A stretch of DNA of 64,000 bases from an uncultured Elusimicrobia bacterium. Lineage in GTDB: Bacteria > Elusimicrobiota > Elusimicrobia > Elusimicrobiales > Elusimicrobiaceae. A model generated the notes under the pieces. The model searched no databases, was not told where the DNA came from, and saw nothing but the letters and a program-made list of their open reading frames with translations. Positions within the stretch are counted from its first letter, which is position 1. Each line of letters begins with the position of its first letter. The position numbers and the translations under genes are program-made. Shown here one piece after another: positions 29,010 to 55,666 of this stretch. The stretch is taken from contig CAMECJ010000007.1 in the NCBI GenBank assembly GCA_945913025.1, forward strand, positions 1-64,000. The letters run 5' to 3'.

Positions 29010-29076
29010 AGATCCCGTATTACAACCCTACGGGATGACTCATAATAACACTTATTACACCCCTACGGGATAATCC
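29010..29076. repeat. Short palindromic repeat, one full and one partial copy
   Basis: The full copy at 29010-29047 has arms ATCCCGTA (29012-29019) and TACGGGAT (29029-29036), followed by GACT. A degraded copy lies at 29051-29076. The same unit recurs at 30868 and 30912, so this is a dispersed intergenic family. Confidence 0.7.
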
Positions 29077-29132: not shown

Positions 29133-30803
29133 ATGCTCGTTAAACGGATCAATTCCTTTTTGCTGTGTGCCGTTCTGGTGATTGCGGGGCCCGTGCCCGC
29201 GCGGGCGTTTTTCCCGTTTTCCTTCCGTAAACAGGAACTCAAAACTGATTACTCCCAAACCGTTTGGGATCAAATTATGCGGGACCAATCTGCCTCCGAT
29301 ATGCGCCGCGGTATGGGCGAAATGGCTCAGGCGCGCTATCGGGAAGCTTCCAACAGTTTCGCCAAAGCCGTAGTTAAAAACGCCAAAGACCCTATGGCGC
29401 ACCTGTTGTTTGGCGCGTCCTTGTATTGGGAAGGCAAGGTGGATGAAGCCATAACGGAGTACAACGAGGCCCTGCGCCTTGCGCCGAATACCGCTATGGC
29501 ATACCAATTATTGGGGATTGCGTACGGCTGGAAAGGCGATGTTGCGCAGGCGCAGGAATACTTTTTAACCGCTAATAAATTGGACCCGGGCAAGGCCGAT
29601 ACCCATATGAATTTAGGCTCCACATACGCCGTACAAAATCATTTGGATAAAGCCTTGGAGCATTTCCGCCGTGCGGCGGAACTCGCACCGCGCGAGCCGT
29701 TATATCACTACCAGTTAGGTACGCTTTACGAATCGCTGGGGCGCGACGGGCAGGCGGAAGCTTCATTTAAAAAAGCGTTAAAATTGTTCCCGTCTTACGA
29801 GGACGCACAGCTTAGTTTGGGGGCTTTGTACGAAAAACTGGGCAGCACGGAGGACGCGTTAAAATACTACAAAAAAGCCGTAAAAACCAAATCCGGCGAT
29901 TATGTGGCCCGTCTGCGTTACGCTTTTTTATTGGTGCGGCAGGGGCAGGAAGATAAAGCGCGCCGGACCTTGGAGGAAGCGTTTTCCATTTCGCGTTTTA
30001 AGCAGGAAGGGCTTGCGCTGAACGCGGTGTACCGCGCCAGCGGCCGCAGCGCGCAGTCGTTTGAAAAACAAATTGAAAAATTTCAAAACAGTTTGTCCAA
30101 TGTCTCTGCGACGAAAGCGGTTAATGTGGAAGTGTCTTTGGAATATGAGCCCGTTTCCGAGGGGGATTTATCTGCCCAAAACACATTTGAACGGGCGTAT
30201 GAACGGCTGCGGGCCGATAACGCGTTTGGCGCTTCTGTTGTTCCGCGGGCGTTTAAGCGGAGGTTTACGCTCCCCGCCGCCGACGTGCAAACGCGCGAAA
30301 ACCAAATAGCGGAGTTTATCTCCGGCGTTCGTCAGGCGGTGGCGCGGGAAGAGGGGAAATATAACGTCAGTTTGTCGCTTCAGGGCCGCACGGCGGATTT
30401 TGCGTCGCCGCGCGCGCTGACGCAAAACGACGGGGCTCCGCCTAAGGCCGTGTACGATCCGCGCATTGTGGGGAACGATATGGGACTTTGGGTAATGGGT
30501 AAAACGTGGCTTAGATTTGTAGATGAAGCGGCGGAAGAACTGCAAGATTATCGCTGTCCCTCCGGCAATATCTGCGCGCTTTTGACGGGCCTTGCCGGCC
30601 TGGCGCGCGGGGATGCGGCGGCGCAGAGCTCTTTTGAAGAAGCAGTACGATCGGCGGCGGATCCGCTCGGCTGGCTTGGTTTGGGTACGGCCGCCGTAGT
30701 GGCGGGGGCGGACGAAGCGGCCCAGAACTACTACCGCCGCGCGCTGGAAGCGGATCCCGCCAATAAAACGGCCTTACGCAACTTAAAAGTGTTGGAGGAG
30801 TAG
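29133..30803 (+). CDS. Exported tetratricopeptide-repeat protein
   Basis: 556 residues with a signal peptide (residues 1-25, ending PARA). A run of about six to seven TPR units covers ~45-290, with clear signatures such as AMAYQLLGIAYGWKGDVAQA and PLYHYQLGTLYESLGRDGQA. A middle region (~300-440) lacks repeats and is of unknown fold, and the C-terminus returns to TPR-like helices (AAQNYYRRALEADPANKTAL). It stands alone between terminator/repeat regions. TPR proteins of this type scaffold periplasmic or outer-membrane complexes; the partner cannot be read from context. Confidence 0.75.
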   Translation: MLVKRINSFLLCAVLVIAGPVPARAFFPFSFRKQELKTDYSQTVWDQIMRDQSASDMRRGMGEMAQARYREASNSFAKAVVKNAKDPMAHLLFGASLYWEGKVDEAITEYNEALRLAPNTAMAYQLLGIAYGWKGDVAQAQEYFLTANKLDPGKADTHMNLGSTYAVQNHLDKALEHFRRAAELAPREPLYHYQLGTLYESLGRDGQAEASFKKALKLFPSYEDAQLSLGALYEKLGSTEDALKYYKKAVKTKSGDYVARLRYAFLLVRQGQEDKARRTLEEAFSISRFKQEGLALNAVYRASGRSAQSFEKQIEKFQNSLSNVSATKAVNVEVSLEYEPVSEGDLSAQNTFERAYERLRADNAFGASVVPRAFKRRFTLPAADVQTRENQIAEFISGVRQAVAREEGKYNVSLSLQGRTADFASPRALTQNDGAPPKAVYDPRIVGNDMGLWVMGKTWLRFVDEAAEELQDYRCPSGNICALLTGLAGLARGDAAAQSSFEEAVRSAADPLGWLGLGTAAVVAGADEAAQNYYRRALEADPANKTALRNLKVLEE

Positions 30804-30818
30804 CGGGCGGTTTTTATC

Positions 30819-30850
30819 CGTCATTCCGGAGTGTTGTGATCGGGAATCTG
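30819..30850. repeat. GTCATTCC-type intergenic palindromic repeat
   Basis: Begins CGTCATTCCGG and ends CGGGAATCTG, an imperfect inverted repeat. It is related to the copies at 31005, 31905, 32049 and 55040. Confidence 0.6.
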
Positions 30851-30867
30851 TTGTTTTTTAAGGAATA

Positions 30868-30978
30868 GATCCCGTATTACAACCTTACGGGATGACTTAA
30901 TAAAAACAGCAAGATCCCGTATAGAGACCCCGTATAACTACCTTACGGGGCAGGCTCTTACGGGATGACTTAATAAAA
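30868..30978. repeat. Tandem and nested copies of the ATCCCGTA palindromic repeat
   Basis: A full copy (30868-30903) is followed by a second (30912-30978) whose loop holds a further copy: the inner arms CCCCGTA and TACGGGG lie between the outer arms ATCCCGTA and TACGGGAT. Both end GATGACTTAATAAAA. The nesting implies insertion of one element into another. Confidence 0.65.
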
Positions 30979-31004
30979 AAACGTCATTGTGCGCCACCCC
31001 CGCC

Positions 31005-31033
31005 GTCATTCCGGGGAGTCGTAATCCGGAATC
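31005..31033. repeat. GTCATTCC-type intergenic palindromic repeat
   Basis: Starts GTCATTCCGG and ends CCGGAATC, outer arms complementary; same family as 30819-30850. It lies in the leader just upstream of rsmA. Confidence 0.6.
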
Positions 31034-31058
31034 TGTGTCTTTATATTAGGAAATTTTT

Positions 31059-31832
31059 ATGCAAAAATACGGACAGCATTTTTTAATTGACCGCCATGTC
31101 ATTAACCAAATCGTGGACGCGGCATTATTATTGCGGGCGGAAAATTTGGTGGAAATCGGCCCCGGTAAAGGCGCGCTGACACAGCAGCTTATCGCGCGCG
31201 GACAAAAACATTTTACGGTTGTGGAAATCGATCTGGAAATGGTTTCTTACCTGCAAATGCACTTGCCCAAAGAAGCGGGTGTAAAAATCACGCAGCAAAA
31301 TTTTTTGGATTTTGATTTGTCTCTTTTGCCGCCTGTGCCGACGGAGTTCGTCAGTAATTTGCCGTATATTGACGCGGCGGATATTTTGGATAAAGTACTT
31401 GCTTACCCGTTCTTTTTCTCGGCGGTGTTTATGTTTCAAAAAGAGCAGGCCCAGCGTATCCGCGCCCAAGCGGGGGAAGAATTTTACGGGCCGCTTTCCA
31501 TTTTCAGCCAACTGCGCGCTCGGATCAGCCCCGTTTGTAAAGCGGGCCGCGGCAGTTTCAGTCCGCCGCCGAAAGTGGAAAGCGCGGTACTTGCTTTTGA
31601 AAGATTAAAAGAACCTGTTTTTATATCGGAAGAAGAATGGCAAAAATTTAAGAAGCTGGTTTTATCCGCTTTTGCGCATAAACGAAAAACGGTGTTTAAT
31701 TCGCTGACGCTTGGCGGATATCCAAAGGATGTAGTGGCGGATTCTATTGCCAAATTAAATTTATCTCCGACGGTGCGTGCCGAGCAAATTTCACCACAAA
31801 ATTATGTGCAATTAAATAAATTATTATCGTAA
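31059..31832 (+). CDS. rsmA: 16S rRNA dimethyladenosine transferase RsmA (KsgA)
   Basis: 257 residues. The N-terminus QKYGQHFLID is diagnostic. The SAM-binding motif is VEIGPGKGALT, the acidic motif VVEIDLEM, and the catalytic NLPY is followed by IDAADI. The C-terminal helical domain includes SAFAHKRKTVFNSL. The length is normal. It dimethylates two adjacent adenines near the 3' end of 16S rRNA. A terminator follows. A diverged second copy of its last ~107 codons lies at 32731-33050. Confidence 0.95.
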   Translation: MQKYGQHFLIDRHVINQIVDAALLLRAENLVEIGPGKGALTQQLIARGQKHFTVVEIDLEMVSYLQMHLPKEAGVKITQQNFLDFDLSLLPPVPTEFVSNLPYIDAADILDKVLAYPFFFSAVFMFQKEQAQRIRAQAGEEFYGPLSIFSQLRARISPVCKAGRGSFSPPPKVESAVLAFERLKEPVFISEEEWQKFKKLVLSAFAHKRKTVFNSLTLGGYPKDVVADSIAKLNLSPTVRAEQISPQNYVQLNKLLS

Positions 31833-31934: not shown

Positions 31935-32030
31935 CCCTTTTATGGTTTATTTCGTTAAAAGCGGTAGATTCTGAGACCCTGCAGGCCGCCAGACTCATCA
32001 GGATAACTTTTTTGACAGGAGAAAACGAAT

Positions 32031-32618
32031 ATGAAAGGTTTTAGTGCCGTCATCCTGAATTTATTTCAGGATCCAGCCATTAATAAAAGAAAATCTTCCG
32101 CTTGGATACTGAAACAAGTTCAGTATGACCATACGATTAAAGGTTTTACGCTGATCGAACTGTTGGTGGTTGTGCTTATCATCGGTATTTTGTCTGCCGT
32201 GGCATTGCCGCAATATCAGCGTGCGGTAGCCAAAACGCGTGCGGCGGAATTGGTGGCGCAAACAAATGCGCTTTGGCGCGCGCAACAGTTGTATTTCTTA
32301 GAAAACGGAACGTATACGGAGAATATGGATGATTTAACGCTTTCGCTCCCTGCAGGGTGCGAAAAAGCCGCCGGCAATTCCTATGTGTGCGGGCATATCT
32401 CTTATGGAAGCAAAGAGGCGGGCGGCTGGCGTGCGGGGGGAAGCAGCATGTTACTTCATATAAATTATTACCGTTACTTGGGGGATTTGGGGCAGCAAAC
32501 GGCATACTGTCAAATTATTGGAAATGATTTGGCGTTAGGACGGTTTTTGTGTGTTTCTCTGGGCGGAGTGGAAATCGGCACGGCGGCGGGGAGACCCTTA
32601 TATCGGATTTCTTTGTAA
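32031..32618 (+). CDS. Type IV prepilin with repeat-extended leader
   Basis: 195 residues from ATG 32031, with AGGAG upstream. The prepilin motif is [17 protein letters not shown], predicted cleavage after Gly38, Glu at +5. The mature part continues [20 protein letters not shown] and has two Cys (GCEKAAGNSYVC) near a likely D-loop. The leader is 38 residues instead of the usual 6-10 because a palindromic element (32049-32129) is inserted in frame. The 10-bp sequence AAAGGTTTTA occurs on both sides (32034-32043 and 32139-32148). Deleting 105 bp would give a normal MKG-FTLIE start. No assembly genes are nearby. Confidence 0.85.
   Translation: MKGFSAVILNLFQDPAINKRKSSAWILKQVQYDHTIKGFTLIELLVVVLIIGILSAVALPQYQRAVAKTRAAELVAQTNALWRAQQLYFLENGTYTENMDDLTLSLPAGCEKAAGNSYVCGHISYGSKEAGGWRAGGSSMLLHINYYRYLGDLGQQTAYCQIIGNDLALGRFLCVSLGGVEIGTAAGRPLYRISL
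32034..32148. repeat. Palindromic element inserted in prepilin leader, flanked by 10-bp direct repeats
   Basis: Arms 32049-32074 and 32104-32129 are inverted repeats matching at 22 of 26 positions. The flanks carry AAAGGTTTTA at 32034-32043 and 32139-32148, exactly 105 bp apart, as a target-site duplication or slippage would leave. The coding frame stays open throughout. Confidence 0.8.
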
Positions 32619-32637: not shown

Positions 32638-32730
32638 TATTCCAAAATCCGCTCTTTGACGTTGAAAGGGCGGATTTCGTTTAGCTTGAGTTCGCGTACG
32701 GCGGTTTCCAACAATACCGTGGTGTCCGCC
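32638..32730 (-). pseudogene. Fragment of ftcD 3' end
   Basis: Aligns without gaps to 34153-34245 of the intact glutamate formiminotransferase gene, with about eleven mismatches. It lacks the last ten codons and everything upstream. It is joined directly to an rsmA fragment at a shared CTGCG. Confidence 0.88.
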
Positions 32731-33050
32731 TGCGCGCGCGGATCAGCCCCGTTTGTAAAGCGGGCTGCGGCAGTTTCAATCCGCCGCCGAAAGTGGAAAG
32801 CGCGGTACTTGCCTTTGAAAGACTCAAAGAACCCGTTTTTTCTTCGGCAGAAGAGTGGAAAAAATTCAAGAAACTGGTCTTATCCGCTTTTGCGCACAAA
32901 CGTAAAACATTATTTAATTCGCTGACGCTTGGCGGATATCCCAAGGATTCGGCGGCAAAGGCGCTTGCCCAATTACATTTACCGCCGACGGTGCGTGCCG
33001 AGCAAATCAACCCGCAAACGTACGTCAAATTGGCGGCGTTGTCGGCATAA
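32731..33050 (+). pseudogene. Fragment of rsmA 3' end
   Basis: Aligns without gaps to 31513-31832 of rsmA (constant offset 1218) and ends at the equivalent TAA. The reading frame is intact (SAVLAFERLKEPVFSSAEEW, SAFAHKRKTLFNSLTLGGYP), but the methyltransferase domain with SAM site and NLPY is missing, so it cannot be active. It diverges from rsmA at both silent and amino-acid-changing sites, most in the last 35 codons. This looks like a different allele rather than a recent duplicate. Confidence 0.9.
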
Positions 33051-54914: not shown

Positions 54915-55024
54915 CAGTCTTTTTGGTTCTTTTTCTACTGTTAGAAAAAGAAGAAGGAGGGGCTTGACCCGTTTTTTTTTTTGATATCATGGGGATAATT
55001 CTGAGTAGTAGGGGGATGTCTCTC

Positions 55025-55666
55025 ATGTATAAAAATACCGTCATGCTGAACTTGTTTCAGCATCCATATCAAAGGGGAAAAAGACTTAATAAACAGCCTG
55101 GATTCCGGGTCTACGCCCAGAATGACGGAGGAGAGAAAGGTTTTACGCTGATTGAATTATTAGTCGTTGTCTTAATTATCGGTATTTTGTCGGCCGTTGC
55201 GCTGCCGCAGTACCAAAAAGCGGTGGAAAAAAGCCGTGCTTCGCAGGCACTTGCGGTGTTAAAATCAGTTGCTGCAGCGCAAGAGGCGTATTATATGGCT
55301 AACGGTACGTATGCTAGAACTTTTGACGAACTGGATATAGAACTCCCGTGGAGCGGTACGGAAAAATGGTACAGCAACGCAACGGATACGCGTTCCAACG
55401 GGGAATGGTCTATGCAGTTGTTGGGGGAGTCTGGGGCAAATGGGGTGTATATCGGTCGATTGAAAGGTAAATATAAAGGCGGCGGTTTTGGTTATTTTTT
55501 TGTTACACCGAATAATTCCCAATATGATAAAAACAGGGTGCTTTGTTTGGAGCGTAAAAGCGGAGGAATTGTTTTTAGCGGAGCCGAGGGCGAGTATTGC
55601 CGGCAGGTGATGGGCGGTACTTTTAAAGGAGGGGAAGCGAATGTCCGCCAGTATACGCTGCCTTAA
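55025..55666 (+). CDS. Type IV prepilin with repeat-containing leader
   Basis: 213 residues from ATG 55025; AGGGGG at 55010-55015 is well placed. ATG 55016 and 54989 are in frame but have worse spacing. Mature start [17 protein letters not shown], Glu at +5, then [20 protein letters not shown], very close to the prepilin at 32031. The leader is about 40 residues; its first half is encoded by a GTCATGCTGAA...CAGCATCC palindrome (55040-55065). The mature part ends with a Cys pair typical of a D-loop ([11 protein letters not shown]... EYCRQVMGG). It overlaps the convergent thiamine gene by four bases. Confidence 0.85.
55040..55128. repeat. GTCAT-family elements within the prepilin leader
   Basis: The first element at 55040-55065 is a near-palindrome (CATGCTGAA / TTTCAGCATCC). 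The second at 55100-55126 reads GGATTCCGGG...CAGAATGAC, which in reverse matches the GTCATTC...GGAATC repeats at 30819 and 31005. Confidence 0.65.

Follow-up and report, generated by a model that had tools for sequence, protein, structure and literature searches.

The gene for a TPR protein and that for the rRNA adenine dimethylase RsmA/KsgA are separated, in the Elusimicrobia genome considered here (1.76 Mb in 27 contigs), by 255 bp containing four palindromic repeats, which we call E1 to E4. The following features are numbered from the first letter of the window, that is, of the whole 64,000-nucleotide stretch of DNA that was analysed.

29010–29039, minus strand: further copy of the 25-nt class, upstream of the TPR gene (repeat scan)
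29133–30803, plus strand: TPR protein gene, left neighbour
30804–31058, no strand: repeat cluster of 255 bp from the TPR gene to rsmA, missing in 29 of 29 relatives read
30820–30849, plus strand: E1, CGTC-type REP of the 25-nt class, GTC + ATTCCGGAGTGTTGTGATCGGGAAT + CT (sequence, repeat scan)
30820–30896, no strand: E1–E2 doublet of 77 nt, tags outward, a single long hairpin (z -5.0)
30867–30896, minus strand: E2, CGTC-type REP of the 25-nt class, GTC + ATCCCGTAAGGTTGTAATACGGGAT + CT (sequence, scan, folding)
30884–30906, no strand: first copy of a 23-bp direct repeat, CTTACGGGATGACTTAATAAAAA (E2 head and flank)
30912–30969, minus strand: E3, composite (nested) CGTC-type REP of 58 nt (sequence, searches, folding, alignment)
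30928–30950, minus strand: inner hairpin of E3, CCCCGTA ... TACGGGG (sequence, alignment)
30957–30979, no strand: second copy of the 23-bp direct repeat (E3 head and flank), 73 bp on
31005–31034, plus strand: E4, CGTC-type REP of the 25-nt class, GTC + ATTCCGGGGAGTCGTAATCCGGAAT + CT (sequence, repeat scan)
31059–31832, plus strand: rsmA/ksgA rRNA adenine dimethylase gene, right neighbour

E3 comprises a GTC tag, outer arms of 8 bp (ATCCCGTA at 30914–30921 and TACGGGAT at 30959–30966), a CT tail and, inside the loop, a second hairpin, the arms of which (CCCCGTA at 30928–30934 and TACGGGG at 30944–30950) have the same orientation as the outer copy and in which CCT occupies the position of the GTC tag. 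An earlier note on this DNA had described a repeat nested in a repeat, and the hairpin at 30912–30969 does hold another, at 30928–30950, in its loop; the right-hand end given there, 30978, lies 9 bp beyond the element proper and covers the greater part of the flank ACTTAATAAAAA. This flank comes after both E2 and E3, the simple copy hairpin at 30869–30893 being that of E2 and the outer nested copy beginning 20 bp further on. The exact-arm pattern is not attributable to chance, there being two matches in the window versus 0.01 on average over 100 shuffles. When folded as a single strand of DNA, the composite attains -16.3 kcal/mol versus -5.6 +/- 1.7 for 200 shuffles of it, none of which is as low (z -6.3), and strong hairpins of E3 are found on either strand. 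A genome-wide listing of the elements, as proposed in the earlier note, returned 76 places for the pattern TCCCGTA-N9-TACGGGA with at most 2 mismatches, versus 5 for the reversed control pattern.

The family to which these copies belong was characterised on contig C1 together with the window (462 kb in all), where a scan demanding GTCAT, and hence missing repeats with changed tags, found 52 tagged hairpins of 20–27 nt, versus random-sequence means at equal composition of 8.5 for C1 and 0.8 for the window. The 25-nt class (n = 29) has the approximate consensus GTC-ATyCCskA-rnGTykywA-TmsGGrAT-CT, with G and T at loop positions 11–12 conserved in 26 and 25 of the 29 copies, respectively, and the tail CT in 25. 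While the tag itself was demanded by the scan, the base preceding GTC in this class was free to vary and is C in 17 of 29 copies, G in 6, A in 4 and T in 2, E2 and E3 both carrying AGTC. The 8-bp stem shows compensatory changes, pair 7/19 being GC in 11, TA in 10 and AT in 4 of 25 distinct copies; the AT pairs and the minimum of at least 7 stem pairs were likewise demanded by the scan and are not independent evidence. The loop, of 9 nt in the 25-nt class and 37 nt in the composite, exceeds the 4–5 nt of the published definition. A second class in the same genome, of 21–22 nt, has a loop of 5 nt in its 21-nt form and the tail CCA in 14 of 18 copies. Neighbouring copies no more than 150 bp apart form 19 pairs, 8 with tags outward, 6 inward and 5 in the same direction, and the lengths of the outward pairs are nearly constant: 76, 77, 77 and 77 nt where the first copy is of 25 nt, and 81–87 nt for the 21-nt class. 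Judged by their sequence, both classes are CGTC-type REPs, of which the 25-nt class is aberrant in loop and tail.

CGTC-type repeats, often paired, also lie in the open frame ahead of the mature parts of type IV pilins (window 32031–32618 and 54989–55666; L008:2284–2883; contig C1), as exemplified by VILNLFQDP...KQVQYD before GFTLIELL. In C1 and the window 7 of 24 pilin-like starts are preceded, within the same open frame, by a complete repeat; some of these repeats may precede the true start codon, and the duplicated pilin cassettes may reflect one event. Behind a pilin gene there is, in addition, a partial second copy of rsmA (window 32724–33041), which covers residues 150–255 at 80% identity and, at the DNA level, matches at 87% over 278 bp.

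How the cluster came to lie between the TPR gene and rsmA can be judged from the 56 relatives with an rsmA match, 29 of which were read at this locus. Far from all copies being fixed and syntenic in relatives, the state of affairs that the earlier note had set against its own reading, no repeat lies between the two genes in any of the 29; they adjoin, with a gap of 0–11 bp in 28 and, in the remaining one (L046), a TPR alignment running to 1498 followed by rsmA from 1501, and in two genomes, G004 and G011, repeats occur on the opposite side of rsmA. Since the junction is repeat-free in all 29, the cluster was acquired in the lineage of the present genome; and since rsmA identity reaches 71% at best in the closest relative, the comparison speaks for acquisition rather than for its recency, and does not bear on E3 alone. 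The empty sites which the earlier note had hoped to find in relatives thus exist for the cluster as a whole, with none in a genome close enough to isolate E3. The same comparison bears on the possibility that what maintains the hairpins in the TPR–rsmA interval is a role in attenuating transcription or stabilising mRNA, their mobility being irrelevant. Their intergenic position and the strong E3 hairpins on both strands would suit such a function, but in each of the 29 relatives read the two genes adjoin with no repeat, related repeats turn up within open frames preceding pilin genes as well, and the window contains no match to an Rfam RNA family (nor any tRNA), such that we regard an RNA-level role as very unlikely to account for them.

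The composite is not confined to this site. A search of the genome for arms 20–50 nt apart yielded two true nests and one neighbouring-arm match, the latter (29013–29070) being merely neighbouring sequence with a similar arm, and a search with the core sequence in 66 genomes of the genus added a third nest in this genome and one each in G042 and G065. The five sites (the window, C4:92701, C15:20420, G042:C280 and G065:C4) have in common, by alignment, GTCAyCCCGTAAGAGCCTGCCCCGT.A.GTAGT; the left and inner parts are nearly invariant and the junction into the inner hairpin is identical in all five, while the right-hand loop varies much as it does in plain copies. The C4 and C15 composites both lie inside one 363-bp segment duplicated at 92.6% identity, and in this segment, as in G065, a second palindrome follows the composite (by eye) in the fashion of an ordinary doublet. 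In a 257-Gb contig collection the core gave four matches (L096–L099), about two being expected by chance for 19 fixed bases according to our estimate. Two of them (L096 and L098) look accidental, that in an Endomicrobium (L097) is ambiguous, and that in an Elusimicrobiales MAG (L099) is identical to the G042 copy in both sequence and flank and is probably the same record.

These recurrences weigh on the question of where the nest arose. The earlier note had taken it as a sign of active or recent mobility, which would most directly mean that the copy at 30914–30966 received another one in its loop by transposition in this very lineage. The 88% identity over 25 nt between the inner hairpin region and E2, as well as the absence of the cluster from the relatives read, accord with such an event; on the other hand, the inner copy has no GTC tag, and the same composite with the same internal junction is present at four other places in three genomes, this genome included, which insertion at this site could accommodate if all of them descended from the window copy. 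We therefore consider nesting in situ highly improbable. What survives of the mobility claim is that the elements are dispersed and come and go, as the repeat-free junctions indicate; insertion at this particular site, as a sign of active or recent mobility, is not supported. Because the same composite is found at four further places in three genomes, E3 is most likely a pre-formed long-hairpin variant, older than its arrival here and copied as a unit.

Simple duplication, which the earlier note had dismissed in favour of mobility, has left its traces nonetheless, both in the duplicated segment that contains two of the other nests and at the window site itself. The 23-bp direct repeat common to E2 and E3 is exact, and no other copy within these 462 kb is preceded by its 10 bp of flank; therefore local duplication, or recombination by way of the arm that the two have in common, shaped this copy. 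Could such processes alone suffice, with E2 and E3 as tandem duplicates and the loop lengthened by template switching between the arms? The exact repeat at a spacing of 73 bp, the flank unseen before other copies and the general propensity of hairpins to favour template switching all point in this direction, and tandem duplication may indeed explain the flank of E3; but it leaves the internal AAGAGCCTGCCCCGT at other loci and in other genomes unexplained, and as a complete account we hold it to be rather unlikely. Under the preferred reading, that of a pre-formed composite, the simplest origin would be the entry of some 28 nt of element sequence into the loop of a 25-nt element, after which the composite would have been copied or recombined as a unit; at the window site the head of E3 and its flank may then have been duplicated with, or converted by, the simple neighbour E2, as the 23-bp repeat suggests.

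Enlarged loops are also found elsewhere. A search for them gave six matches in genome G000 (two being E3 and four being two neighbouring copies in one direction), six long-loop copies in G042 and, in G065, the composite. A second type of enlarged loop, with a GTTTGGCGGCCCGCAGGGT-like insert, was noted at L001:1123, L019:1977, window 31966–32007, L101:1436 and G042:C323:5341, and occurs in several copies in G000, G042 and G065. Since other enlarged loops exist, the data suggest that the loop tolerates cargo. The composite, for its part, is an instance of a hairpin the loop of which can hold extra sequence while the element occurs at several places in several genomes.

One question then is which enzyme, if any, is associated with these repeats. 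In REP systems of the GTAG type the mobilising enzyme is a Y1 (HUH) tyrosine transposase, the RAYT, and the presence of two Y1_Tnp matches in this genome, together with the similarity of the doublets to the REPINs and BIMEs, would be in keeping with such an agent. However, the tag is GTC rather than GTAG; Y1_Tnp is present in 11 of 61 genomes only, one of the two matches here having an internal stop; and none of the 16 matches in the genus has a repeat within 400 bp, the match being taken at position 1501 in all loci, although contig ends truncate some of these, and one gene region accounting, in pieces, for two of the matches. Moreover, 8 of the 11 Y1_Tnp-bearing genomes hold at least 6 repeats, and yet no match is flanked. 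The Y1 transposase was consequently rejected as a partner, and mobilisation of the repeats by a GTAG-type REP/RAYT mechanism appears extremely improbable.

In the same 61 genomes the picture is quite different for GIY-YIG domains. There are 23 matches in small open frames, distributed over 15 genomes ("small" meaning below 150 aa, a cut-off chosen after the matches were known), and a CGTC-type palindrome lies within 400 bp of the domain in 22 of the 23, within 160 bp in 21 and on both sides in 15. Of 415 ordinary frames in the 462 kb of this genome, which is the most repeat-rich of the set, 37 have such a palindrome no farther than 400 bp away and 4 are bracketed by them, distances being reckoned from the domain match for GIY-YIG and from the ends of mechanically called frames for the control. 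At the rsmA loci of relatives a repeat was found in 2 of 29, or 2 of 8 in nuclease-bearing genomes. The larger GIY-YIG frames, of 152–312 aa, which are weaker matches outside the 23, are repeat-flanked in 0 of 8 cases, and UvrC loci in 0 of 16, a weak control inasmuch as these loci belong mostly to genomes poor in repeats and their downstream side falls within the gene itself. Among the small genes, the one at L066 lacks any repeat within 400 bp, and the sole repeat of that at L065 is 400 bp away.

At the level of whole genomes, at least 6 repeats are present in 15 of 15 genomes with a small gene versus 10 of 46 without it (Fisher 4.6e-8, uncorrected for kinship). These ten, with 6–66 repeats and no small GIY-YIG match (G034 with 66, G042 with 44 and G054 with 24, for example), count against the enzyme being strictly required, or else reflect loss or incomplete assembly; several are incomplete, G034 is 95% complete, and in G042 the composite is present and the small nuclease was not detected.

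The class of the adjacent repeats also bears a relation to the nuclease phylogeny. On the GIY-YIG tree, for which a class could be given to 22 of 23 rows (that of L065 from one repeat 400 bp off), repeat class changes 5 times versus a shuffled mean of 10.1, with 0 of 200 shuffles as low, and the 25-AT class forms one group with support 93/94. The 25-CT class, to which E3 belongs, requires 3 changes and, taken by itself, clusters no more tightly than expected by chance (107 of 500 shuffles need as few); strong support is confined to 3 of 20 inner branches. Repeat class tends to follow nuclease clade, the match being partial. Within the present genome there are two small genes. That at C4:161399 has CT-tailed repeats of 25 and 24 nt, the class of E3, 117 and 23 bp upstream, and that at C2:66539 lies beside 21-nt repeats. 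Next to the latter gene is a tandem array with a period of 101 bp, in which inverted 21-nt CGTC-type repeats alternate (L007:795–1450, i.e. C2:65833–66488). Both products match PF01541 as a small stand-alone domain (2e-18 for the C2 protein, 1.1e-17 for the C4 match), no NCBIfam model scores above its cut-off for the small GIY-YIG protein, and in the PDB SLX1 alone is matched, weakly (best E 0.005).

Outside the phylum, homologues were found in 33 records of a plasmid collection, from which 15 loci were sampled. Clear CGTC REPs flank 7 of the 15 (Photobacterium, N. gonorrhoeae, Neorhizobium, Shinella, Rhizobium, Azospirillum and Aeromonas), with 31 of 600 in the shuffled control, and around the N. 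gonorrhoeae homologue, at 58% identity, 9 CGTC REPs lie no more than 400 bp away. A Spirosoma locus, which would raise the count to 8 of 15, was set aside as its hit looks accidental, with a stem unlike that of the family. No CGTC element was found at another 7 of the 15, among them those of S. meliloti and N. aromaticivorans, two organisms given as CGTC-bearing in the relevant part of a published survey (Di Nocera et al. 2013, PMC3733652). On a Planktothrix plasmid (L142) the small GIY-YIG gene sits between an MmeI-type restriction-modification system and DISARM drmA, with no CGTC repeats within 400 bp. Among the matches listed in a literature search no paper links GIY-YIG to REPs.

Taken together, we regard it as probable that E3 is a pre-formed composite of a CGTC-type REP family serving as single-stranded DNA hairpin substrates for small GIY-YIG nucleases. 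The genes for these putative Ssn-like enzymes, of about 95–105 aa, lie at other places in the genome and have repeats of the same class as neighbours, and in the likeliest model E1 to E4 would be cut, when single-stranded, by the C4 nuclease. Nicking might occur at the tagged base of the hairpin whenever the DNA becomes single-stranded during replication, DNA uptake or repair, and the nicks, together with recombinational repair, could lead to doublets being copied to new places. A wider proposition, which we advance only tentatively, is that CGTC REPs and small GIY-YIG proteins constitute an enzyme–repeat system, in which each clade would have its own stem-loop class, defined by loop length and tail, and genes and repeats would move together, composites with loop insertions such as E3 indicating that recognition by the enzyme involves tag, stem base and tail and leaves the loop free to take cargo. 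The passages of the 2013 survey on the family leave open what, if anything, mobilises CGTC REPs (PMC3733652), and the association described here offers a good lead on the enzyme behind the repeats. Since the genus provides natural pairs of nuclease and repeat class (21, 22-CCA, 25-CT and 25-AT), two of them in one genome, specificity is directly testable by substrate swap.

Among known systems, REPINs, BIMEs and the doublets described here have in common that short palindromes, arranged as inverted pairs, fold as one hairpin; unlike REP/RAYT systems, however, the present repeats have neither a GTAG tag nor an associated RAYT. A parallel for the enzyme is Ssn, a family of GIY-YIG nucleases reported to cut single-stranded DNA site-specifically at NTS repeats in Neisseria. 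The substrate class in the present genus differs from the NTS in both loop and stem. Nevertheless, as with Ssn, a small stand-alone GIY-YIG protein is encoded near many short palindromes and the repeats are arranged around its gene (22 of 23 within 400 bp versus 37 of 415 ordinary frames), cleavage here being putative.

The repeats themselves find their nearest counterpart in the CGTC-tagged REP superfamily, which, according to the survey's passages on it, includes the dRS3 of Neisseria and the RPE-4 and RPE-6 of Rickettsia, and the members of which lack a dedicated transposase (Di Nocera et al. 2013, PMC3733652); the string "elusimicrob" has 0 occurrences in its main text. The published elements are there defined by the tag CGTC or a variant, a stem of 8–9 bp with AT as the first two pairs, loops mostly of 4–5 nt, with exceptions acknowledged, and a 3-nt tail, mostly CCA (PMC3733652). 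Set against this part of the definition, the 25-nt class differs by its 9-nt loop, its conserved GT and its CT rather than CCA tail, and the survey's passages on CGTC REPs describe no composite that has an inner hairpin (PMC3733652). Yet, in so far as these passages permit comparison, the resemblances are extensive: the tag GTC mostly follows C, the 8-bp stem has AT as its first two pairs and is succeeded by a short unpaired tail, there is no link to a transposase (0 of 16 Y1_Tnp matches, Y1 being the sole family searched), and the copies form doublets and occupy intergenic as well as some intragenic positions.
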